A stretch of DNA of 64,000 bases from Gammaproteobacteria bacterium (GCA_029862005.1 JAOTYD010000008.1:68472-132471), one strand, 5' to 3'; counted from the first letter of the stretch, positions 2,085 through 13,487 are shown. Notes: generated by a model not told the origin, from the sequence alone. Program-made: numbers and translations.

Positions 2085-2618
2085 ATGGAAAAAATGGATC
2101 TGGAAGACTTCGACCAGGAGCTTCCCGACCGCATGAACCTCGCGGTGATCATGGAAAAACAGCCCTCGACACACCCCTGGGCGGAGTTTCGCTACGATGC
2201 GATCGGGGTTGTTGTGCACGACGGCGAAGAAAAATCGGTATCCCGGATTTACCAGGATGGCGAGGTCGAGCATTTCCTCGTCACTGGTCTGGATCTGCAG
2301 TTGCATCTCGACGAATGCGAAAGTTACTACCACAACCTGATGTCGCCCGAACCGGGTTGTTTCATCGTTGCCGATCAGCCCGATACCAGTGACGAAATGC
2401 CAATACCCTACCTGGTTTCGCTAAGTTTCGACGAGGTTCACGCCTACCTCGAAGGAGACGAACAGATTTACTCGGTGCCGATTCCGCCGCAACTTTACCG
2501 CTGGGCAGAAGCCTACGTATTGACACACTATGTCGCGATCAAGAAAACCAAGCGCAAGCTTAAAAACTGGCACCAAACGGAAAAGCCCGGAACGACCTCC
2601 GGGGGCAACCGGTCATGA
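2085..2618 (+). CDS. DUF3305 protein, first gene of the FDH operon
   Basis: Cytoplasmic protein of 177 residues matching the DUF3305 pattern. It has an N-terminal strand (LAVIMEKQ), a central YYHNLMSPEPGCFIV block, and a C-terminal block with PIPPQLYRWAEAYVLTHY. Members sit next to DUF3306 and formate dehydrogenase genes in many Proteobacteria. A role in assembly or maturation is inferred from context and no activity is known to me. A second ATG at 2094 is an alternative start; neither has a strong ribosome site. The stop overlaps the next start by four bases. Confidence 0.8.
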   Translation: MEKMDLEDFDQELPDRMNLAVIMEKQPSTHPWAEFRYDAIGVVVHDGEEKSVSRIYQDGEVEHFLVTGLDLQLHLDECESYYHNLMSPEPGCFIVADQPDTSDEMPIPYLVSLSFDEVHAYLEGDEQIYSVPIPPQLYRWAEAYVLTHYVAIKKTKRKLKNWHQTEKPGTTSGGNRS

Positions 2619-3205
2619 CCGAGGACAGCAAAGAGTCGGTTTTACTGCGCTGGTCGCGGCGCAAGCAGGAGGCCGTGCAGAGCACCACCGGCGTCGGCGA
2701 AGACGAACCGAAAGAAACACAGGCCAGCCTTGACACCACAGCATCAACCGAGACCGAGACAGCCCCGGTACTGACCGATGCCGACATGCCGCCCATCGAA
2801 TCGCTGGATGAAAACTCCGATTTCAGTGGCTTCATGTCGGAAGGCGTCAGTGACGAACTGCGCAACCTCGCGTTACGCAAGCTTTTCAAAGCGCCGGTTT
2901 TCAATATTCGTGACGGCCTCGACGAGTATGACGAAGACTATACCTTTTTCGAGAAACTCGGCGACGTGGTTACCTGTGATATGAAACACCATATCGAAAT
3001 GAAAGAGCAAGAGGAACGCGAAGCCCGGGCGCTGGCAGCCGAACAGGATGCCGAAGGTGAGATAGAGGCCATGGAAGCAATTGAGGATGACGAAGATCTT
3101 GAGGCCATGGAACGCATCGAGGATGCCGATATCGCTGATAAGAAGTCCGAAATCGTATCAAATGCCGACCTGCAACCCGAAAATAACCAAAGTGCGGACA
3201 AATGA
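2615..3205 (+). CDS. DUF3306 protein with acidic C-terminal tail
   Basis: 196 residues. The N-terminus has the family signature LLRWSRRKQEA. The middle has SDELRNLALRKLFKAPVFNI followed by a DGLDEYDEDY segment. The last ~65 residues are very rich in Glu and Asp and are probably disordered or helical. ATGA-type overlaps with DUF3305 (before) and the polyferredoxin (after) suggest stoichiometric synthesis. Known from the family: co-occurrence with formate dehydrogenase loci. Its role in enzyme maturation or Fe-S delivery is inference. Confidence 0.8.
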   Translation: MTEDSKESVLLRWSRRKQEAVQSTTGVGEDEPKETQASLDTTASTETETAPVLTDADMPPIESLDENSDFSGFMSEGVSDELRNLALRKLFKAPVFNIRDGLDEYDEDYTFFEKLGDVVTCDMKHHIEMKEQEEREARALAAEQDAEGEIEAMEAIEDDEDLEAMERIEDADIADKKSEIVSNADLQPENNQSADK

Positions 3206-4767
3206 GTAACATCGATGCGCGAAATCAGGCGCTAAAGTCGCGTGATGCTTATGAATTCGAGCCGACCAGCCTGGTGTCATACCAGTCTTCCGGCAAGATA
3301 ATCGCGCTCGGTGACGACGAGGCCCTGCAAAAATGCGCTGAATTACCGGAAACGCTCGCTATAGACAGGATTTCGACCGCTGCTGGCGGGATCCGGATCG
3401 ACGGCTATCTCGGCGCTTTTGTTGTCAGCGTAAACGATCAGAAAGGTAACCCGGTGGCCCACCAGGGCGACGCGATTCTCGATCTGAATGAAACGCCATT
3501 GCTGGCGCGGGAAATGCTGCCCCCGGGATATTTCCATGTGCCTGCGCGGGACTGGGGCAAACCAGAGCTGGTAGACGAACTGGCTGACTTGCCGGGCGAG
3601 TTTCAAAAACCCAAGTATTTCGATTATGACGCGTCGATTTGCGCGCACGGCGTGAATGGCAAGATTGCGTGCCGGCAATGTATCGACGCCTGCCCGGCGG
3701 AAGCGATCCAGAGCCTGGTGGACCGGATCGAGGTCAATCCTTACCTGTGCCAGGGTGGCGGCAGTTGCACCACGGTTTGCCCGTCGGGTGCGATCCGTTA
3801 CCTGTACCCGACCCTGCGCGACAATGGCAAGCGCATGCGCGACATGCTCAGGATTTACCAGGAGCAGGGCGGCAGTCGCCCCATTATTTTGTTCCATAGC
3901 GAGAGTTACTCGCCCGAAATGTACCTGCAGCACTATGACAACCTGTTGCCGCTCGAGGTCGAGGAGCTAGGCAGCGTTGGCATGGATTTGTGCCTGTCGG
4001 CACTGGCCTATGGTGCCATGCAGGTGGTGCTGTACGTCGATGAGCAGGTGCCGGGGAGTACCCGGGCCAGCCTTGCGGCCCAGGTCGAATGGAGCGAGGC
4101 GCTGCTGGTCGGTGTCGGGATGGATGGAGCCTGCATTTCGCTTTGTACCGCTGATGCGCCACTGCCGGAAATCGAAGTCGCGCAAAATGTCGAGATGGCG
4201 ATACACGATGTGCCCCCGGGTAAGCGCAATGCGATATACCAGGCGCTCGATCATCTCGTAACAAGCCTGAAGCCTGCACCGGACCAGGTTGAGCTGCCAG
4301 CATCAGCACCCTTTGGTGAAGCCGCTATCGATGCCGCAAAGTGCACGCTGTGCATGGCCTGCGTGGGGTCCTGCCCGGGCCGAGCGCTGCAGGATGGTAC
4401 CAACCGCGAAGTGCCCGAGGTTTTTTTCATCGAAAGCAACTGCCTGCAGTGTGGCGCCTGCGTGCAAACCTGCCCGGAGGACGCGATAAGCCTGCAACCC
4501 AGGCTGCTGTTTGATCATGAAACGCGAAACCGGGCGCGTGCCCTCAACAGTGACACACCGTTCGTGTGCATTGCCTGTGGCAAGCCGTTTGCATCCACCT
4601 CGGTAATTCACAAGATGCTGGAAAAACTGAAGGATCACCATATGTTTGGCAGTCAACGTGCGCTTGATCGATTGAAGATGTGTGACAATTGCCGCGTGGT
4701 CGATATCGTTCAGGATCCCGATGCGATGGGTGGACAGTTTGATCCGCAAAAGGGCTTTCGTCAGTAA
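3202..4767 (+). CDS. Multi-cluster 4Fe-4S protein of the FDH locus
   Basis: 521-residue cytoplasmic Fe-S protein. Two [4Fe-4S] motifs lie at about residues 147-195 (CRQCIDACP; CTTVCP). Two more lie at about 381-430 (CTLCMACVGSCP; CLQCGACVQTCP). A C-terminal CIAC/CDNC pair (about 456 and 494) may bind zinc or another cluster. The segment between the ferredoxin pairs has no motif I can name. Proteins of this type accompany DUF3305/3306 and TorD upstream of fdh genes and are thought to serve enzyme assembly or electron supply. It starts inside the DUF3306 stop region. Confidence 0.82.
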   Translation: MSNIDARNQALKSRDAYEFEPTSLVSYQSSGKIIALGDDEALQKCAELPETLAIDRISTAAGGIRIDGYLGAFVVSVNDQKGNPVAHQGDAILDLNETPLLAREMLPPGYFHVPARDWGKPELVDELADLPGEFQKPKYFDYDASICAHGVNGKIACRQCIDACPAEAIQSLVDRIEVNPYLCQGGGSCTTVCPSGAIRYLYPTLRDNGKRMRDMLRIYQEQGGSRPIILFHSESYSPEMYLQHYDNLLPLEVEELGSVGMDLCLSALAYGAMQVVLYVDEQVPGSTRASLAAQVEWSEALLVGVGMDGACISLCTADAPLPEIEVAQNVEMAIHDVPPGKRNAIYQALDHLVTSLKPAPDQVELPASAPFGEAAIDAAKCTLCMACVGSCPGRALQDGTNREVPEVFFIESNCLQCGACVQTCPEDAISLQPRLLFDHETRNRARALNSDTPFVCIACGKPFASTSVIHKMLEKLKDHHMFGSQRALDRLKMCDNCRVVDIVQDPDAMGGQFDPQKGFRQ

Positions 4768-4787: not shown

Positions 4788-5390
4788 ATGTCAACCACCG
4801 GCGAACCAACGATCGAACCGGAACAGCGTTACCGGGCATCGGCCTATGCGTTGCTGGCGGCCTTGCTGAGGGCACCGCCGGAGCAGGCCTTGCTGGATCA
4901 CGTGGTGGAGCTGTCACCGGAAAGTGACCCTGAATCCGATGAACTCTCGCTGGCAATGGCAGAGCTCGCAGGCGCTGCCCAGAAGGTGCGTCCGGCCGAC
5001 CTGGAAGATGAATACAACCGCCTCTTTATCGGCCTTGGCGGGGGTGAAGTCGTTCCCTACGGATCCTGGTACCTGACCGGTTACCTGATGGAACAACCGC
5101 TGAGTGATTTGCGTGATGACCTGCGTGCGCTCGGTTTTGAGCGCAATCCGGATGTTAGTGAGCCAGAGGACCACGCTGCCGCGATCTTCGAGGTATTTTC
5201 CGTCATGATCACAGACTCGGTAGATCTCGAGCGTCAGCGAGCATTTTTCGAAAGGCACATGAAAAGCTGGATATCGCGCTTTTTTGACGATCTGAGCGAG
5301 GCGAAATCGGCAGATTTTTATGGATTCGTGGCGCGATTTGGAGTAGCCTTCTATAGTTTGGAAAAAACTTACCTATCTATGCAGATATAA
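4788..5390 (+). CDS. TorD/DmsD-family molybdoenzyme chaperone
   Basis: 200 residues, all-helical TorD-like chaperone. These proteins bind the Tat leader of a molybdoenzyme and hold it until cofactor is inserted. Seen: the family core EYNRLFIGLGGGEVVPYGSW at about residues 74-93, and a C-terminal region with SRFFDDLSEA. It is placed directly before the Tat-signal proteins of the operon, so its client is most likely the catalytic subunit at 5655. No strong ribosome site precedes the ATG. Confidence 0.88.
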   Translation: MSTTGEPTIEPEQRYRASAYALLAALLRAPPEQALLDHVVELSPESDPESDELSLAMAELAGAAQKVRPADLEDEYNRLFIGLGGGEVVPYGSWYLTGYLMEQPLSDLRDDLRALGFERNPDVSEPEDHAAAIFEVFSVMITDSVDLERQRAFFERHMKSWISRFFDDLSEAKSADFYGFVARFGVAFYSLEKTYLSMQI

Positions 5391-5654: not shown

Positions 5655-8543
5655 ATGAAAAAATTAATCAAATCATCGTCCAGCGTCGATAAATCAAAAG
5701 TCGCCAGGCCTTGCAAGTCGGTGCCCGGGGCAATTAGTCGTCGTACCTTCTTAAGAAATTCGAGCCTGATGGCGGGTGGCGCGGCGCTCGCGACCACGGT
5801 GTCGCCGGTGATGATGAAAAAAGCCGATGCGGCGGTTGCGGCCGGCGGTAAAATCGAACAAGTCAAGACGATTTGCACGCATTGCTCGGTTGGTTGCGGC
5901 ATTATCGCGGAAGTTCAAAACGGCGTCTGGACAGGGCAGGAGCCGGCTTTCGATCATCCTTTCAATAAGGGCGCGCACTGCGCCAAGGGTGCGTCGATCC
6001 GTGAACACGGGCATGGCCCACGTCGCCTCAAGTATCCAACCAAGCTGGTTGACGGGAAATGGAAAAAGATTTCCTGGGACGAGGCGATCAATGAAATCGG
6101 CGACAAGATGCTCGAAATTCGTGACAAGTCGGGTCCCGATTCGGTGTTCTGGCTGGGTTCTGCCAAGCACAGCAACGAGCAGGCTTACCTGTTCCGCAAG
6201 TTCGCGGCCATGTGGGGCACCAATAATGTCGACCACCAGGCGCGTATCTGTCATTCGACCACGGTTGCCGGGGTAGCAAATACCTGGGGCTACGGTGCGA
6301 TGACGAATTCCTACAATGATATCCATCATTCCAAGGCAATATTATTGATCGGTTCCAACCCGACCGAAGCGCACCCGGTCGCGTTGCAGCATATCTTCAA
6401 GGCCAAGGAAGAAAACAATGCGCCGGTGATCGTCATTGATCCGCGCTTCACCCGTACCGCAGCGCACGCCAATCACTATCTCAAGATTCGTCCCGGCACC
6501 GACGTGGCGATTATCTGGGGCATGATGTGGCATATCTTCGAAAACGGCTGGGAAGACAAGGAATTTATCCGCCAGCGGGTTTACGGCATGGATGACGTCA
6601 TGAAGGAAGTCAAGAAGTGGAACCCGGCCGAAGTCGAACGCGTTAGCGGTGTGCCGGAAGACCAGGTTTATGCAGCCACCAAGGCGATGGCGGATAACCG
6701 TCCCGGCACCTTCATCTGGTGCATGGGCGGTACCCAGCACACTATCGGTAACAACAATACCCGTGCTTATTGTGCGTTCCAGCTGGCGCTCGGTAACATG
6801 GGCGTCTCGGGTGGCGGCGCCAATATATTCCGCGGCCACGACAATGTCCAAGGGGCCACCGATCTCGGTGTACTTTCCAACACCCTGCCCGGGTACTACG
6901 GTCTTTCCGCGGGTTCGTGGAAGCACTGGTCGCGCGTCTGGGACCTCGACTACGAATGGATCAAGGGCCAGTTCGATAGCGGTAGCTACGAGCAGAGCAA
7001 GGGTAAAGATGTCCCGGTCATGAATACCAAGGGAATTCCGGTATCACGCTGGATCGACGGCGTGCTCGAAGACAAGGCAAACATTGCCCAGAAAGATAAC
7101 CTGAGGGCAATGTTCTTCTGGGGTCACGCGCCCAACAGCCAGACTCGCGGCGTCGAGCAGAAAAAGGCGATGGAAAAGCTCGAGATGATGGTCATCGTCG
7201 ATCCTTATCCGACCGCATCAGCGGTAATGCCGGACCGTAAAGACGGAATCTACCTGCTGCCGGCATCGACGCAGATGGAAACCTACGGTTCGGTGACAGC
7301 TTCCAACCGCTCGTTCCAGTGGCGTTCGAAAGTCATCGAGCCACTGTTCGAGTCACTGCCAGATCAAACCATTATGTACAAACTGGCGAAAAAACTGGGT
7401 CTGGCCGATCAACTGTTCAAGAACATCAAAGTCAACGGCGAGGAACCACTGGTTGAAGACATCCTGCGCGAAATCAATCGCGGCATGTGGACCATCGGTT
7501 ACACCGGCCAGAGCCCGGAACGTCTGAAGAAGCACCAGGAGAACTGGGGCACCTTCGATTACGACACCCTGAAAGCCGAAGGCGGTCCCGCCGACGGCGA
7601 CTACTACGGCCTGCCATGGCCTTCATGGGGACCCCCGGAAATGAACCATCCGGGTACGCCGAACCTGTATGACACCTCCAAGAACGTGGCGGATGGTGGT
7701 TTGACTTTCCGCGCCCGCTTCGGGGTAGAACGTAACGGAACCAACCTGCTTGCAGAAGGTTCTTATGGTAAAGGTTCTGATATCAAAGATGGTTATCCTG
7801 AATTCAGCGCCGATGTTTTGAAGAAACTGGGCTGGTGGGATGACCTGACCGCGGCAGAAAAGAAGGCGGCCGAGGGCAAGAACTGGAAAACCGACCTGTC
7901 CGGCGGCATTCAGCGGGTCGCAATCAAGCACGGCTGTTCGCCGTTCGGAAACGCCAAGGCCCGAGCGATGGTCTGGACCTTCCCGGATCCGGTGCCCATT
8001 CATCGCGAGCCGTTATACACGTCGCGACGTGACCTGGTCGAGAAGTACCCGACCTACGAGGATCGCAAGTCGTTCTGGCGCCTGCCGACGCGTTACAAGT
8101 CGATCCAGGCCACCGATTTCAGCAAGGATTATCCGATAATCCTAACCTCCGGACGACTGGTCGAGTACGAGGGCGGTGGCGACGAAACCCGCTCCAACGC
8201 CTGGCTGGCCGAATTGCAGCAGGACATGTTCGTGGAAATCCATCCACGTGATGCCAACAACGCCGGCATCAAGGATGGCGACGATGTCTGGGTCGAAGGC
8301 GCCGAAAAGGCCAAGGTCAAGGTCAAGGCGATGGTAACGCGCCGGGTTGGTTCCGGGGTCGCTTTCATGCCGTTCCACTTTGCCGGGCATATGCAAGGCG
8401 AGAACCTGCTGGATAAATACCCGGAAGGCGCGGCACCCTACATCCTGGGTGAAGCGGCCAATACGGCATTTACTTATGGCTACGATTCGGTGACGCAGAT
8501 GCAGGAATCGAAATGCAGCCTTTGTCGCATTACGAAAGCTTAA
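5655..8543 (+). CDS. fdhA: Formate dehydrogenase catalytic subunit (Cys type, exported)
   Basis: 962-residue molybdopterin oxidoreductase that oxidises formate to CO2 in the periplasm. It has a Tat signal (SRRTFLRNSS). A [4Fe-4S] site follows: CTHCSVGC from Cys74, with the fourth Cys near 109. The active-site segment QARICHSTT places Cys199 (TGT) where Sec enzymes have U. A C-terminal molybdopterin dinucleotide-binding region (ILTSGRLVEYEGGG onward) completes it. The length fits FDH3/FDH-N type subunits. A strong GGAGG precedes the start. Mo versus W cannot be decided. Confidence 0.95.
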   Translation: MKKLIKSSSSVDKSKVARPCKSVPGAISRRTFLRNSSLMAGGAALATTVSPVMMKKADAAVAAGGKIEQVKTICTHCSVGCGIIAEVQNGVWTGQEPAFDHPFNKGAHCAKGASIREHGHGPRRLKYPTKLVDGKWKKISWDEAINEIGDKMLEIRDKSGPDSVFWLGSAKHSNEQAYLFRKFAAMWGTNNVDHQARICHSTTVAGVANTWGYGAMTNSYNDIHHSKAILLIGSNPTEAHPVALQHIFKAKEENNAPVIVIDPRFTRTAAHANHYLKIRPGTDVAIIWGMMWHIFENGWEDKEFIRQRVYGMDDVMKEVKKWNPAEVERVSGVPEDQVYAATKAMADNRPGTFIWCMGGTQHTIGNNNTRAYCAFQLALGNMGVSGGGANIFRGHDNVQGATDLGVLSNTLPGYYGLSAGSWKHWSRVWDLDYEWIKGQFDSGSYEQSKGKDVPVMNTKGIPVSRWIDGVLEDKANIAQKDNLRAMFFWGHAPNSQTRGVEQKKAMEKLEMMVIVDPYPTASAVMPDRKDGIYLLPASTQMETYGSVTASNRSFQWRSKVIEPLFESLPDQTIMYKLAKKLGLADQLFKNIKVNGEEPLVEDILREINRGMWTIGYTGQSPERLKKHQENWGTFDYDTLKAEGGPADGDYYGLPWPSWGPPEMNHPGTPNLYDTSKNVADGGLTFRARFGVERNGTNLLAEGSYGKGSDIKDGYPEFSADVLKKLGWWDDLTAAEKKAAEGKNWKTDLSGGIQRVAIKHGCSPFGNAKARAMVWTFPDPVPIHREPLYTSRRDLVEKYPTYEDRKSFWRLPTRYKSIQATDFSKDYPIILTSGRLVEYEGGGDETRSNAWLAELQQDMFVEIHPRDANNAGIKDGDDVWVEGAEKAKVKVKAMVTRRVGSGVAFMPFHFAGHMQGENLLDKYPEGAAPYILGEAANTAFTYGYDSVTQMQESKCSLCRITKA

Positions 8544-8556
8544 GGGGGATTGAAAA

Positions 8557-9150
8557 ATGGCTACTATGAAATTTTACTGTGATGCGGAACGTTGTATCGA
8601 ATGTAATGCCTGCGTAACCGCCTGTAAAAACGAGCATGATATCCCCTGGGGCGTTAACCGCCGACGCGTGGTTACGATCAAGGATGGCGAGCAGGGTGAA
8701 CGCTCACTTTCGGTCGCATGTATGCACTGCTCCGATGCGCCTTGCGCTGCAGTCTGCCCGGTGGACTGCTTTTACACCACCGGTGACGGCATCGTTTTGC
8801 ACGACAAGGACATCTGTATCGGCTGCGGTTACTGCTTTTACGCCTGTCCGTTCGGGGCGCCACAATTCCCCGAATCGTCAGCCTTCTCGTCGCGTGGCAA
8901 GATGGATAAGTGTACTTTCTGCGCCGGTGGTCCGGAAGATGACCACAGCTCCGAAGAGTACAAAAAGTATGGACGCAACCGGCTTTCAGAGGGTAAGTTG
9001 CCGTTGTGCGCAGAGATGTGCTCCACCAAGGCCTTGCTGGCTGGCGATGCAGACGTACTCTCGGATATCTATCGCAAGCGCATCATCAATCGCGGCGCCA
9101 GCGCCTTTGACTGGGGTGTTAACTTTAACAACACCAAGATCCAGGGTTAA
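8557..9150 (+). CDS. fdh3B: Formate dehydrogenase iron-sulfur subunit (Fdh3B type)
   Basis: 197-residue electron-transfer subunit with four [4Fe-4S] motifs: CIECNACVTACK, CMHCSDAPCAAVCP, CIGCGYCFYACP and a CTFC plus downstream CAEMC set. It has no signal peptide, so it is expected to travel through Tat bound to the catalytic subunit. It would pass electrons from that subunit to the membrane cytochrome b. It starts 13 bases after the catalytic gene behind a GGGGG-type ribosome site. Confidence 0.93.
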   Translation: MATMKFYCDAERCIECNACVTACKNEHDIPWGVNRRRVVTIKDGEQGERSLSVACMHCSDAPCAAVCPVDCFYTTGDGIVLHDKDICIGCGYCFYACPFGAPQFPESSAFSSRGKMDKCTFCAGGPEDDHSSEEYKKYGRNRLSEGKLPLCAEMCSTKALLAGDADVLSDIYRKRIINRGASAFDWGVNFNNTKIQG

Positions 9151-9221: not shown

Positions 9222-10292
9222 ATGAAAACTGGGAAAAGGGTGAGAGTCGTGAGAATCCATACGTTGATAATGATGGTTTGCCTGGTGTTGTCCGTGTTCC
9301 AGGTGCAGGCTGCCGATCCTTCTGTCGATCCTCCTCCCCCACCTGAGAGTTTGCTATCCATTAATCCCGGTTCAGAGCTATGGCGCGAGGTGCGACAGCG
9401 TGATGGCGTTGTCGAGGGTATCAGCCAGGTCAAATCACCGGGTGCCAACGTGCTGGTCAACGTGTCGGGCCAATCCTGGCGCGAGTACCGGATGCAGGAA
9501 CTGGTGCCGATAGCGGGTGCAGCGATTTTGATCGTGCTGGTCATAATCGCGATCTTCCGTTTGTTGCGCGGTCGCATCATGCTCGAGAACGGGCGTTCGG
9601 GCGTCAAGATTTTACGTTTTACGACGAGTCAGCGAGCCGCGCACTGGACTACGGCGATTCTTTTCGTGACGCTCGGCCTAACCGGGTTGATCCTGTTGCT
9701 GGGTCGCAAATTTCTAATCCCTCTGTTCGGTGCCGAGGGTTTCAGCAATATCGCCGTGGCGGCCAAATTCCTGCATGATTACCTTGGACCCGTCTTCATG
9801 TTGGCGCTGACCTGGCTGTTCGTGTTGTTTGTACGCGACAATATTCCATCTCCCAAACTCGACCTGCAGTGGTTGCTGAAAGGCGGTGGATTGTTCGGCA
9901 AACACGCCAGTGCCGGTCGCTATAATGCCGGCGAAAAACTCTGGTTCTGGCTGGCGACGATTGTTGGACTTGCGGTGATTATCAGTGGCATGGTGCTCGA
10001 CTTTCCGATTTTTGGCCAGGCGCGTGCCACGATGGAGTTTTATCACTGGGTGCATAGCGTATCCGCGATAATTCTGATCGTGGTTTCGTTTGGTCATATC
10101 TATATGGGCACCGCGGCACTGGAAGCGACTTTTGAAGTCATGAAGACCGGCTACTGTGACGCTAACTGGGCCAAGGAACATCACGACCTGTGGTATGAAA
10201 AAGTCAAGGATTCAAATGAATCCGCGCCGCAGAGTCAGGCGCAAGCCAACACCGATACCGGGCAACGCGAATCTGCGGACTCCGCTTACTAG
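9222..10292 (+). CDS. Formate dehydrogenase cytochrome b (gamma) subunit, copy 1
   Basis: 356 residues. N-terminal signal segment, then a short periplasmic domain (INPGSELWREVRQRDG), then about five membrane helices. Conserved His residues occur in the helices (AAHWTT; HDYLGP; YHWVHS; FGHIYMG), as expected for diheme FDH cytochrome b. It would carry electrons to quinone. The start is uncertain: the ATG at 9222 has a poor ribosome site, and in-frame GTGs at 9240 and 9249 are alternatives. A second copy follows at 10405. Confidence 0.9.
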   Translation: MKTGKRVRVVRIHTLIMMVCLVLSVFQVQAADPSVDPPPPPESLLSINPGSELWREVRQRDGVVEGISQVKSPGANVLVNVSGQSWREYRMQELVPIAGAAILIVLVIIAIFRLLRGRIMLENGRSGVKILRFTTSQRAAHWTTAILFVTLGLTGLILLLGRKFLIPLFGAEGFSNIAVAAKFLHDYLGPVFMLALTWLFVLFVRDNIPSPKLDLQWLLKGGGLFGKHASAGRYNAGEKLWFWLATIVGLAVIISGMVLDFPIFGQARATMEFYHWVHSVSAIILIVVSFGHIYMGTAALEATFEVMKTGYCDANWAKEHHDLWYEKVKDSNESAPQSQAQANTDTGQRESADSAY

Positions 10293-10309
10293 CTCAAGGC
10301 CGTCGCGGT

Positions 10310-10335
10310 CAGTAGTTGTCCTAGGTCAACTACTG
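10310..10335 (+). repeat. Stem-loop between the two cytochrome b genes
   Basis: CAGTAGTTG / CAACTACTG, nine perfect pairs around an eight-base loop, 17 bases after the first gamma stop. An AT-rich stretch (10339-10375) follows but has no T-run. It could be a partial terminator, a processing site, or a barrier protecting the upstream mRNA. Confidence 0.5.
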
Positions 10336-10404
10336 CGTTGGTTAATATTGCATAAATTATGACCTGTTTTATTCTGCCGGGAGTCAAAACCGGTAGGATA
10401 AAGC

Positions 10405-11568
10405 TTGGTTAATTCCCGCTACATATACTCACCCGTTTCACCTACGCAACTGACAGCTATTATCCTGTTTGTGGTTGGCCTGTTTTTGACGCAAGTCTCC
10501 GTTGCAGCTGTACCGCAAAAACATGAAAATTTCCCGCAAGGAGTGCCAACAATAAACCCGGGTAGTGAACTGTGGCGCGAAATACGCCGGCGCGACGGCA
10601 GCGGCGAATTCAACGAAGTGAACCAGGGACTGCTGGTCAACGAACTGTTACGCGAAATGCGCAACAGCCAGCAGATACAGCAGGGAATCAGCCAGGTCGG
10701 ACAGGTCGATAGCGGCGTGCTGATCAATGCCCAGGGCAAACGCTGGGCACTGTTTCGCATGACCACGCTGGCGGATTACAGTGCCATCGCGATTGCGGCC
10801 ATCTTCGTCATCATCGTTCTGTTTTTCGTTATCCGTGGCAAGGTGTCTATCGAGGGCGGCCTGTCTGGTAACGTGGTCAAACGTTTTAGCGACTACGAGC
10901 GCGTCGTGCACTGGACACTGGCGATCGTATTCCTGTTTCTCGCCATTACCGGGTTGATACTGTTGCTGGGCCGCCCGCTGCTGATTCCGCTGTTTGGCAA
11001 GGATTTCTTTGCACTATTGGCCTCGGCTAGCAAGGAGGGGCACAACCTGTTTGGCCCACTGTTCCTGGTATCGCTGATCATGATGCTGATCAGTTTCGGG
11101 CGACGCAATATTTACGAAAAGGGCGATCTGACCTGGCTGCTCAAGGGCGGTGGCCTGATCGGTAAGGGTCACGTTTCGGGCGGATTTTTCAACATGGGCG
11201 AAAAAACCTGGTACTGGATGGTGATTTTGATAGGCCTCGTGATTTCGATCAGCGGTCTGATCCTGGTATCGCCCAATTTCGGGCAGGGCCGACTGATCAT
11301 GGAGTTCACCCATATCCTGCATGTGGTCAGTGCGATGATATTAATCGTGGTCTCGATCGGCCATATGTATCTCGGCTCGATCGGCAGCGAAGGCGCGCTC
11401 GAGGGTATGAAATCCGGCTATGTGGATATCAACTGGGCAGCAGCACATCACGATCGCTGGGGAAAGCTTTGCCGCGAACAGGATTTAATCGTCTCGGCCG
11501 AGGAGTACGCGCGGCTGCAGGGACAAACCGGGAGTATATCTCAACCCGTGACGGAGCAGGGCAAATGA
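10405..11568 (+). CDS. Formate dehydrogenase cytochrome b (gamma) subunit, copy 2
   Basis: 387 residues, a paralogue of the preceding gene. It shares the NPGSELWRE periplasmic motif, the VVHWTLAI first heme helix, the LLLGRPLLIPLFG block, the ILHVVS helix and the GHMYLG end. The periplasmic domain has about 20 extra residues rich in Asn, Gln and Arg. The start is TTG at 10405 with AGGA about seven bases upstream, an unusual start for the operon. The two b subunits may have different partners or quinones; that is inference. The stop overlaps the next ATG. Confidence 0.87.
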   Translation: MVNSRYIYSPVSPTQLTAIILFVVGLFLTQVSVAAVPQKHENFPQGVPTINPGSELWREIRRRDGSGEFNEVNQGLLVNELLREMRNSQQIQQGISQVGQVDSGVLINAQGKRWALFRMTTLADYSAIAIAAIFVIIVLFFVIRGKVSIEGGLSGNVVKRFSDYERVVHWTLAIVFLFLAITGLILLLGRPLLIPLFGKDFFALLASASKEGHNLFGPLFLVSLIMMLISFGRRNIYEKGDLTWLLKGGGLIGKGHVSGGFFNMGEKTWYWMVILIGLVISISGLILVSPNFGQGRLIMEFTHILHVVSAMILIVVSIGHMYLGSIGSEGALEGMKSGYVDINWAAAHHDRWGKLCREQDLIVSAEEYARLQGQTGSISQPVTEQGK

Positions 11569-12206
11569 TCGAATACCTCGTTGACGGACCGCTCTGGTAT
11601 CTTTCCCTCGCGGTGTTTTGCACAGGCGTTGTCTGGAAGCTGGGCAGCATTATTTTTACAAGCCGTAAAACCGACCTTTCCGTGGCGCGCGACTCGGCGA
11701 CGTCAGGCGCGGTCAGAACCGTGTTTAGCCGTTTCCTGCCGCACAGGGAAATTGCGGCCAGCATAAAAATGCAGGTCATCGCGGGATACATGTTTCACCT
11801 GGGCTTGTTCGCGTTATTGTTTTTCGCCGCGCCGCACGTCTTGTTTCTCGAGGAACATATTCTCGGTTTTGGCTGGACAGCGATGCCGCACTGGGCCTTT
11901 ATCGTCTCCGCCCAGTTCGCCTTTCTCGGCCTGATCATGTTGTGGTTACGTCGGTTGGTGAACCCGGTCAGCCGGCTGATATCGACACTCGACGATCACG
12001 TCGCCGCAATCCTGACCTTCATCGTCATGCTGACCGGCTGTTTCGCGCTGCTCGAGGGCTCGCCTGCGCTGCGATTGCTACACCGTTTCACGGTCGAGCT
12101 TTGGCTGATTTATTTTCCGTTCAGCGCGTTAATGCACACCTTTACCTTCGTGCCAAGCCGCGCTTTTACCGGCGCCTGGTTCGGACGGCGCGGCATCGAT
12201 GCCTAG
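11565..12206 (+). CDS. NarI/DsrM-like membrane subunit
   Basis: 213 residues with about five membrane helices. The start is placed at the ATG overlapping the previous stop (ATGA); an upstream in-frame start would run back into the previous gene. Histidines are spread through the helices (MFHLGLF, MPHWAF, HRFTVEL, LMHTF), the pattern of nitrate reductase gamma and DsrM/HdrE-type heme b proteins. Its partner is almost certainly the Fe-S protein that follows 12 bases later. Confidence 0.75.
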   Translation: MIEYLVDGPLWYLSLAVFCTGVVWKLGSIIFTSRKTDLSVARDSATSGAVRTVFSRFLPHREIAASIKMQVIAGYMFHLGLFALLFFAAPHVLFLEEHILGFGWTAMPHWAFIVSAQFAFLGLIMLWLRRLVNPVSRLISTLDDHVAAILTFIVMLTGCFALLEGSPALRLLHRFTVELWLIYFPFSALMHTFTFVPSRAFTGAWFGRRGIDA

Positions 12207-12218
12207 GGGATTAATCGA

Positions 12219-13487
12219 ATGAGCGAACGACTCGAACGTGGTCTCGAAACCCTGCGCAACGAAATTGACGGCAAGGTCAAATCCTTCTTTTCGAGCTGCG
12301 TACGCTGCGGCATTTGCGCCGAAGCCTGCCTGTTTTATACCGAGACCAACGATCCGCGCTATACCCCGATCTACAAAACTGAGCCCCTGCGCAAACTGTG
12401 GCAAAAGGAATACAGTTTCTGGGGCAAGCTCAGCAGCGCACTTGGTATCGGCAAACCCATGACCGAGGCGGATCTCGCCGACTGGGAGGAACTGGTCTAT
12501 GACGGTTGCTCGATGTGCGGTCGCTGCAGCATGGTGTGCCCGGTCGGTGTCGATATTTCGATGGTCATCTTCAAGGTCAAGCATGGCCTCGCCAAGGCCG
12601 GCTTTTCACCCGAGGGCCTGGTCGGCGCGACACAGCGCGCGGTCGATATCGGCAGCCCAATGGGTATTACCATGAAAGCAGTCGCGGCGACAATCAAACA
12701 CGTCGAGGCGAATACCGGCCTCAAGGTACCGTTGGACGTCGAAGGCGCCGATTATCTTGCATTGCTTTCGTCCAACGAAATCGCGCTCTATCCCGAGTAT
12801 CTCGAGTCGATTACCAAGATCTTCGATCACGCCGGCGTCAGCTGGACCCTGTCGTCCGAGGCCTACGAGGCCACCAATTCAGGATTGCAGATTGGTAACA
12901 AGACGATCGCCGGGCAATTGGTACAGCGCGTCGTCGACGGCGCCGAGAAACTCAAGGTCAAAAACGTCATCAGCCCGGAGTGCGGCCACGCCTATACCGC
13001 GTTGCGCTGGGAGGGGCCGAATTTCATCGGCAAGGCCTATCCGTTTCGCGTCGTGCATATACTCGAATTGCTCGACGAGTTGCGCGCCGAGGGCCGGCTC
13101 GAGACTACTGGCATGGAACACGAACGTCTGACCTTCCACGACCCCTGTTCGATCGTGCGCCGTGGCGGCATCCAGGCACAACCGCGCAACCTGCTGCAAC
13201 CACTGGCCGAGAACTTCGTCGAAATGACCGACCATGGTTCGATGAACTGGTGCTGCGGCGGCGGTGGCGGCGTCAGCAGTAACGAGCGCGCCGAGGAGTT
13301 GAAACTCACTGCTTTCAACAAGAAGAAATCGCAGATCGATGCGCTCAAGGTCGACGCGGTCGTGACCGCTTGCTCCAATTGTCGCATGGTCATGGAGGAA
13401 GGCGTAGAACACAACGAAATGGAAGTCGAGCTGCTGGGGCTGACCGAAATCATTGCCGAGCACCTGGTTGACAAACACGCCCACTAA
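12219..13487 (+). CDS. HdrD/DsrK/GlpC-like iron-sulfur protein
   Basis: 422-residue cytoplasmic protein. Two [4Fe-4S] motifs lie near the N-terminus (Cys27, 30, 33, 37 and Cys97, 100, 103, 107). One CCG domain follows: Cys310, Cys345-Cys346 in CCGGGGG, and Cys385/Cys388, the ligand set of heterodisulfide-reductase-type clusters. With the preceding NarI-like protein it resembles a DsrMK or HdrED pair. The electron partner is unknown: a thiol/disulfide compound or quinone is possible. It is the last gene of the operon. Confidence 0.85.
   Translation: MSERLERGLETLRNEIDGKVKSFFSSCVRCGICAEACLFYTETNDPRYTPIYKTEPLRKLWQKEYSFWGKLSSALGIGKPMTEADLADWEELVYDGCSMCGRCSMVCPVGVDISMVIFKVKHGLAKAGFSPEGLVGATQRAVDIGSPMGITMKAVAATIKHVEANTGLKVPLDVEGADYLALLSSNEIALYPEYLESITKIFDHAGVSWTLSSEAYEATNSGLQIGNKTIAGQLVQRVVDGAEKLKVKNVISPECGHAYTALRWEGPNFIGKAYPFRVVHILELLDELRAEGRLETTGMEHERLTFHDPCSIVRRGGIQAQPRNLLQPLAENFVEMTDHGSMNWCCGGGGGVSSNERAEELKLTAFNKKKSQIDALKVDAVVTACSNCRMVMEEGVEHNEMEVELLGLTEIIAEHLVDKHAH

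Follow-up and report, generated by a model that had tools for sequence, protein, structure and literature searches.

A predicted Isp-type formate dehydrogenase with two gamma subunits in a gammaproteobacterium

The window, a stretch of 64,000 nucleotides from contig C8 of a 4.0 Mb gammaproteobacterial genome, contains an FDH3-type formate dehydrogenase (FDH) operon that ends in a gene pair assigned, from related operons, to Isp1 and Isp2. The overall best explanation, which we consider likely though far from assured, is that the operon encodes an Isp-type formate dehydrogenase with two electron exits. The isp genes have been considered exclusive to two hydrogenase groups (PMC11018855), and no description of isp genes in FDH operons was found in the open-access literature. 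The presence of an Isp1/Isp2 module on a periplasmic FDH of a sulfur-oxidising bacterium suggests a shared plug that leads from outside donors to an inside acceptor, and this acceptor probably belongs to sulfur metabolism.

Organization of the formate dehydrogenase operon

The operon runs in the order DUF3305, DUF3306, poly-Fe-S protein, TorD, FdhA, Fdh3B, FdhC1, FdhC2, Isp1 (NarI-like) and Isp2 (CCG), and every gene listed in a preliminary description of the window was found where it had been placed (Table 1). The name DUF3305 is our assumption from position, and the remaining genes were named from domain matches; the DUF3305/DUF3306 order is unchanged in relatives. FdhA has a twin-arginine-type signal (SRRTFLR), which would place it in the periplasm. 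The enzyme tested as an FDH3-type formate dehydrogenase, with Fdh3B scoring above its curated cut-off and both gamma subunits above that of TIGR01583 (formate dehydrogenase gamma, 115.85 bits). It resembles FDH3/FDH-N systems (FdhAB-FdhC) in FdhA, in Fdh3B and in an FdhC with the four FdnI heme histidines, but differs from them by adding a second, Isp-linked FdhC and Isp1-Isp2.

Table 1. Features of the FDH operon and their positions in the window
Feature	Position	Strand	Evidence
DUF3305 and DUF3306 accessory genes, operon start	2085..3205	+	ORFs; PF11748 DUF3306 93 bits
Poly-[4Fe-4S] protein	3202..4767	+	Fer4 domains; kept in operon across relatives
TorD/DmsD-type chaperone	4788..5390	+	PF02613 107 bits
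FdhA, molybdopterin catalytic subunit	5655..8543	+	PF00384/PF01568/PF04879; TIGR01591 475 bits, under cut-off 666
Fdh3B, [4Fe-4S] beta subunit	8557..9150	+	NF038355 FDH3_beta 341.5 bits, cut-off 240
FdhC1, ordinary (Isp-free type) gamma subunit, diheme cytochrome b	9222..10292	+	TIGR01583 163.6 bits
Possible CRP/FNR-type site TTGTCCTAGGTCAA, FdhC1-FdhC2 gap	10316..10329	+	Resembling sites in other two-FdhC genomes
FdhC2, Isp-linked gamma subunit, diheme cytochrome b	10405..11568	+	TIGR01583 150.2 bits
Isp1, predicted NarI-fold diheme b membrane subunit	11565..12206	+	TmcC 93.5 bits, under cut-off
Isp2, predicted cytoplasmic, two [4Fe-4S] sites and one CCG site	12219..13487	+	PF02754, Fer4_8

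The order FdhA-FdhB-FdhC-NarI-like-CCG was seen again across many genera, and 30 of 57 loci have the FdhC and NarI-like genes joined by an ATGA overlap; this recurrence and coupling argue that the gene order is not due to chance. In the window, the Isp1 ATG lies within an ATGA (11565-11568) that contains the FdhC2 stop, so that of the ATGA overlaps claimed earlier this one is real, and the junction between the NarI-like and CCG genes is a 12-base gap. The double-FdhC gene order, for which the preliminary description proposed a search, was seen in one operon in only 7 genomes (the window's and 6 others, some of its genus).

Identity of the NarI-like/CCG pair

Compared with the pair in a hydrogenase operon (L061), the window's proteins are 62% (Isp2) and 33% (Isp1) identical, and the neighbors of the L061 pair are HynS (TIGR00391, 450 bits against a cut-off of 179.5) and HynL. 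L061 is one of four loci without FDH (with L047, L068 and L069) that encode Fe-S proteins 56-64% identical to that of the window and have the order hynS - NarI-like - CCG - hynL; NCBIfam confirmed HynS and HynL in L061 and HynS in L068. Because this order equals the published gene order of Isp-type hydrogenases, hynS-isp1-isp2-hynL (PMC10892978; PMC3325256), the NarI-like/CCG pair is Isp1/Isp2, as judged by the operon structure of relatives rather than by direct comparison with the Thiocapsa roseopersicina sequences. The window's module is located after fdhA-fdh3B-fdhC1-fdhC2, not between hynS and hynL, and the window therefore has an Isp module but not an Isp-type hydrogenase.

The likeness to Isp-type [NiFe] hydrogenases (T. 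roseopersicina; HydDB group 1e) extends to an Isp2 with all cluster cysteines retained, an Isp1 with the same four invariant histidines, a module overlapping with the gene for the electron-input subunit, and hosts that have DsrAB in common. In contrast to these hydrogenases, a molybdopterin FDH serves as the input enzyme in the window, a diheme gamma subunit belonging to this enzyme stands between its Fe-S subunit and Isp1, and the window's Isp1 falls in a separate clade.

The pair had been named DsrMK/HdrED-like, which we replace: its nearest relatives outside FDH operons are the Isp1/Isp2 proteins of NiFe hydrogenases, and NCBIfam scores fell under the cut-offs for DsrK (NF045796, 232 bits against 400), TmcB (218 against 735), HmcF (211 against 750) and TmcC (93.5 against 240), as in the further Tmc/Hmc test (73 against 275). 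DsrMK has the same two-part plan with one CCG site, and DsrK is the best NCBIfam model for Isp2, but membership is ruled out by the DsrK score; the window operon also lacks DsrJOP, and elsewhere in the genome, on contig C21, a distinct DsrK-like gene (34% identical) shares a locus with dsrA and dsrC. TmcBC/HmcEF of sulfate reducers likewise combine a NarI-like b subunit with a CCG Fe-S protein, and among NCBIfam models TmcC fits Isp1 best, but every curated cut-off was missed, which rules out membership, and the window operon has no multiheme cytochrome c. HdrED also pairs a CCG protein with a b-type membrane protein, but HdrD has two CCG motifs where Isp2 has one, and membership is ruled out on this count.

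Both proteins passed the test for an Isp-type (1e) module, Isp1 as a NarI-fold b-type membrane protein with four histidines and Isp2 as a protein with two [4Fe-4S] sites and one CCG site that is close to hydrogenase Isp2. Isp1 His 78, 91, 173 and 191 are invariant in FDH and hydrogenase rows, and His173 and His191 align with NarI His187 and His205, which we take to be heme ligands. All FDH rows (100%) have Cys159 in Isp1, and no hydrogenase row does (0%). A single-sequence search of Isp1 against the PDB gave no match and a profile search found NarI, weakly; the best fold match to its AlphaFold model (pLDDT 92.8) was also NarI (E about 1e-3, probability 1.00). Isp2 has one complete CCG motif (CCG stretch 305-392), and this motif and eight [4Fe-4S] cysteines are common to the FDH and hydrogenase sets. 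The AlphaFold model of Isp2 (pLDDT 91.7) gave fold matches to EtfD and HdrB, with mycobacterial EtfD the best.

Two gamma subunits from separate lineages

FdhC1 and FdhC2 are 41% identical, and alignment to 1kqf_C and conservation indicated that both retain the four FdnI heme histidines, presumably as heme ligands. The start codon of FdhC2 (TTG) is uncertain. The earlier description of two tandem paralogous cytochromes b stands insofar as both are b556-type gamma subunits; an origin by local tandem duplication is ruled out, as the two fall into separate FdhC lineages in trees. FdhC1 clustered with the ordinary FdhC of Cocleimonas, G781 and G095 (support 100/96) and was a better match than FdhC2 in 27 of the 29 Isp-free FDH operons having an FdhC match. 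Where another Isp-bearing FDH operon has a single FdhC, that protein is orthologous to FdhC2, and Isp-linked FdhC has a signature near one heme histidine (Ser207, Glu211, Leu215 and Phe216 in FdhC2 numbering). A single clade for all Isp-linked FdhC was rejected (AU p = 0.0014), so FdhC type and Isp linkage are imperfectly tied.

Cocleimonas, G239 and G780 have FdhC-Isp1-Isp2 at one locus and an ordinary FdhAB-FdhC at another, so that the window operon unites what these genomes hold apart; G781 has an orphan Isp1-Isp2 besides an ordinary FDH operon. The site in the gap between FdhC1 and FdhC2 is conserved as TTGTCCTRGRTCAA, which is like a CRP/FNR-family box, in L033, L034, L076, L079 and L080, with a variant in L032. 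The window's own genome has 2 exact copies of TTGTCCTRGRTCAA and 5 with one mismatch. This putative CRP/FNR-like site may give FdhC2-Isp1-Isp2 a separate promoter.

Distribution of Isp modules and exchange of Isp2

Isp2-like genes were found in 51 of 369 genomes drawn evenly from Gammaproteobacteria. The 57 Isp2 regions fetched were classed as 43 hydrogenase operons, 9 FDH, 3 FdhC-only and 2 other, with genomic contexts incomplete where contigs were short; two further FDH cases (G000 and G004) lie outside these regions. The FDH3 beta subunit was present in 49 of the 369 genomes, 11 of which had Isp2 directly downstream on the same contig. Named hosts of FDH-Isp were Sedimenticola, the Olavius algarvensis Gamma 3 symbiont, and Thiotrichales and Arenicellales MAGs, as well as the alphaproteobacterial Marimonas lutisalis and Jhaorihella thermophila. 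According to the preliminary description, a pair occurring mostly far from fdh genes would speak against a common complex; such a distribution was found for the whole family, mainly in hydrogenase operons, but not for FDH-type Isp1, where 48 of 50 clade rows had an Fdh subunit.

In the Isp1 tree, the FDH set (42 FDH, 6 FdhC-only and 2 orphan or fragment) and the hydrogenase set (60 plus 2) split with support of 100/100. In contrast, FDH-linked Isp2 was scattered at several places among hydrogenase Isp2 in a tree from a quick search, and a single clade for FDH Isp2 was rejected (AU p = 3.1e-5). Outliers that cluster in both the FdhC tree and the Isp1 tree (L072/L075, L156/L158 and L128) do not do so in the Isp2 tree. 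Because the FdhC tree resembles the Isp1 tree on these outliers and the Isp2 tree does not, we read the trees as indicating that FdhC and Isp1 travel together, whereas Isp2 appears to have been exchanged between hydrogenase and FDH.

Association with sulfur metabolism and proposed electron path

DsrA was found in 44 of the 51 genomes with Isp2 versus 77 of 318 without (Fisher p = 1.6e-17) and, among FDH genomes, in 10 of 11 with linked Isp versus 19 of 38 without (p = 0.017), both comparisons being confounded by phylogeny. Co-occurrence of Isp2 and DsrA was seen in 28 of 31 families. Group 1e hydrogenases are listed in HydDB as an electron input primarily for sulfur respiration, and as reversible (PMC5037454); Isp1/Isp2 of T. 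roseopersicina have been described as providing the electron transfer on which in vivo activity depends (PMC3102683); and DsrK, which is related and has a single CCG site, has been described to reduce DsrC trisulfide (PMC12948486). Three FDH-Isp genomes (G267, G691 and G725), with Isp2 of a divergent clade, lack any match to the DsrC family, and none of them has a DsrA that scores above its family cut-off. The acceptor therefore need not be DsrC everywhere, and DsrC as an obligatory acceptor family-wide is ruled out.

In the proposed path, FdhAB would oxidise formate in the periplasm and electrons would exit by either of two membrane gamma subunits. FdhC1 would be the ordinary route, delivering electrons to quinone, and the second route would lead from FdhC2 through Isp1 (diheme b, NarI fold) to Isp2, with its two [4Fe-4S] clusters and one CCG-type cluster. 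Isp1 would thus act as an enzyme-specific adapter from the FDH membrane subunit to Isp2, and Isp2 as an exchangeable output unit that Isp-type hydrogenases also use. It is plausible that electrons leave for an Fe-S or thiol acceptor in the cytoplasm; the CCG site could swap electrons with a disulfide or persulfide there, most likely a DsrC-kind sulfur carrier or a low-molecular-mass persulfide. In that case formate would drive dark reduction of stored sulfur, like H2 via Isp-type hydrogenase, or the path might be reversed and act as an overflow. That the second b subunit, the NarI-like protein and the CCG protein form one unit, as had been proposed, agrees with the conserved order, the ATGA coupling, the shared partners of FdhC and Isp1, and FdhC-Isp1-Isp2 standing alone in Cocleimonas and others. 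The physical FdhABC2-Isp1-Isp2 complex, its acceptor and its electron direction are our inference.

The opposite direction of flow has to be weighed against this path. EtfD hands cytoplasmic electrons to menaquinone, and mycobacterial EtfD being the best fold match of Isp2 would fit a path in which Isp2 oxidises a reduced cytoplasmic carrier (a thiol or sulfur protein) and Isp1 passes the electrons to quinone. The hosts resemble sulfur oxidisers with DsrAB, and the reversibility noted for group 1e hydrogenases (PMC5037454) is also in its favor. We regard such reverse flow as unlikely, and the same holds for its companion proposal, in which the module lies next to FDH because both use one quinone pool or because the complex works in the direction of CO2 reduction: Isp1 is specific to its partner enzyme and not generic, which a shared quinone pool alone would not demand.

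The electrons from Isp2 could instead serve CO2 fixation by way of ferredoxin or NAD as a low-potential acceptor in the cytoplasm, either alone or with electrons split between quinone and Isp2, an idea put forward on the basis of AlphaFold models of archaeal Isp-type hydrogenases (PMC11018855) and compatible with the three FDH-Isp genomes without a DsrC-family match. The strong association of Isp2 with DsrA argues against it, as do the absence from Isp2 of any ferredoxin or NAD-binding domain other than the Fe-S domains it has and the absence of an adjacent NAD-binding gene from the operon, and we consider it quite improbable. An ordinary FDH-N type enzyme might also sit beside an unrelated DsrMK-like sulfur complex and be joined to it by co-regulation only, given that the putative regulator site between FdhC1 and FdhC2 could make FdhC2-Isp1-Isp2 a transcript of its own and that FdhC-Isp1-Isp2 of Cocleimonas lies away from FdhAB. 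However, FdhC remains with Isp1-Isp2 where FdhAB is elsewhere, and both the ATGA coupling and the like clustering of outliers in the FdhC and Isp1 trees make mere co-regulation very improbable.

Isp modules and other partners

If the two-exit FDH is placed beside the hydrogenases, Isp1-Isp2 might be a general transmembrane plug, in which Isp1 is fitted to each periplasmic donor (hydrogenase, FDH, perhaps others), Isp2 is freely swapped and one common cytoplasmic sulfur acceptor is served, a proposal that we make tentatively. If it is true, H2 and formate feed the same intracellular sulfur-reducing path. An FDH with an Isp module in which Isp1 is partner-specific and Isp2 exchanged is a natural experiment that splits the input from the output part, and Isp2 features retained across both enzymes should relate to the shared acceptor. 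The extra FDH module in sulfur oxidisers (Sedimenticola, Cocleimonas) thereby gets a testable reason.

Several loci showed other arrangements. At L131 (8404-13964), Isp1-Isp2 occurs without hydrogenase or FDH, and a few genes downstream a multiheme cytochrome c, a DmsB-like Fe-S protein and an NrfD-like protein were recognized by eye, possibly a third partner type for Isp1-Isp2. At L155 (reverse strand, about 6.9-10.3 kb), Isp1-Isp2 adjoins a gene that by eye resembles one for a sulfide:quinone reductase or a flavocytochrome c flavoprotein, and neither hydrogenase nor FDH genes are near. The hydrogenase genes of L154 (5068-10378) have the order HynS-Isp1-HynL-Isp2, with Isp2 displaced from its usual place between the hydrogenase subunits. 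In Cocleimonas flava (L045, 7331-11281), a rhodanese-like gene with a signal peptide and no NCBIfam match lies upstream of FdhC-Isp1-Isp2.
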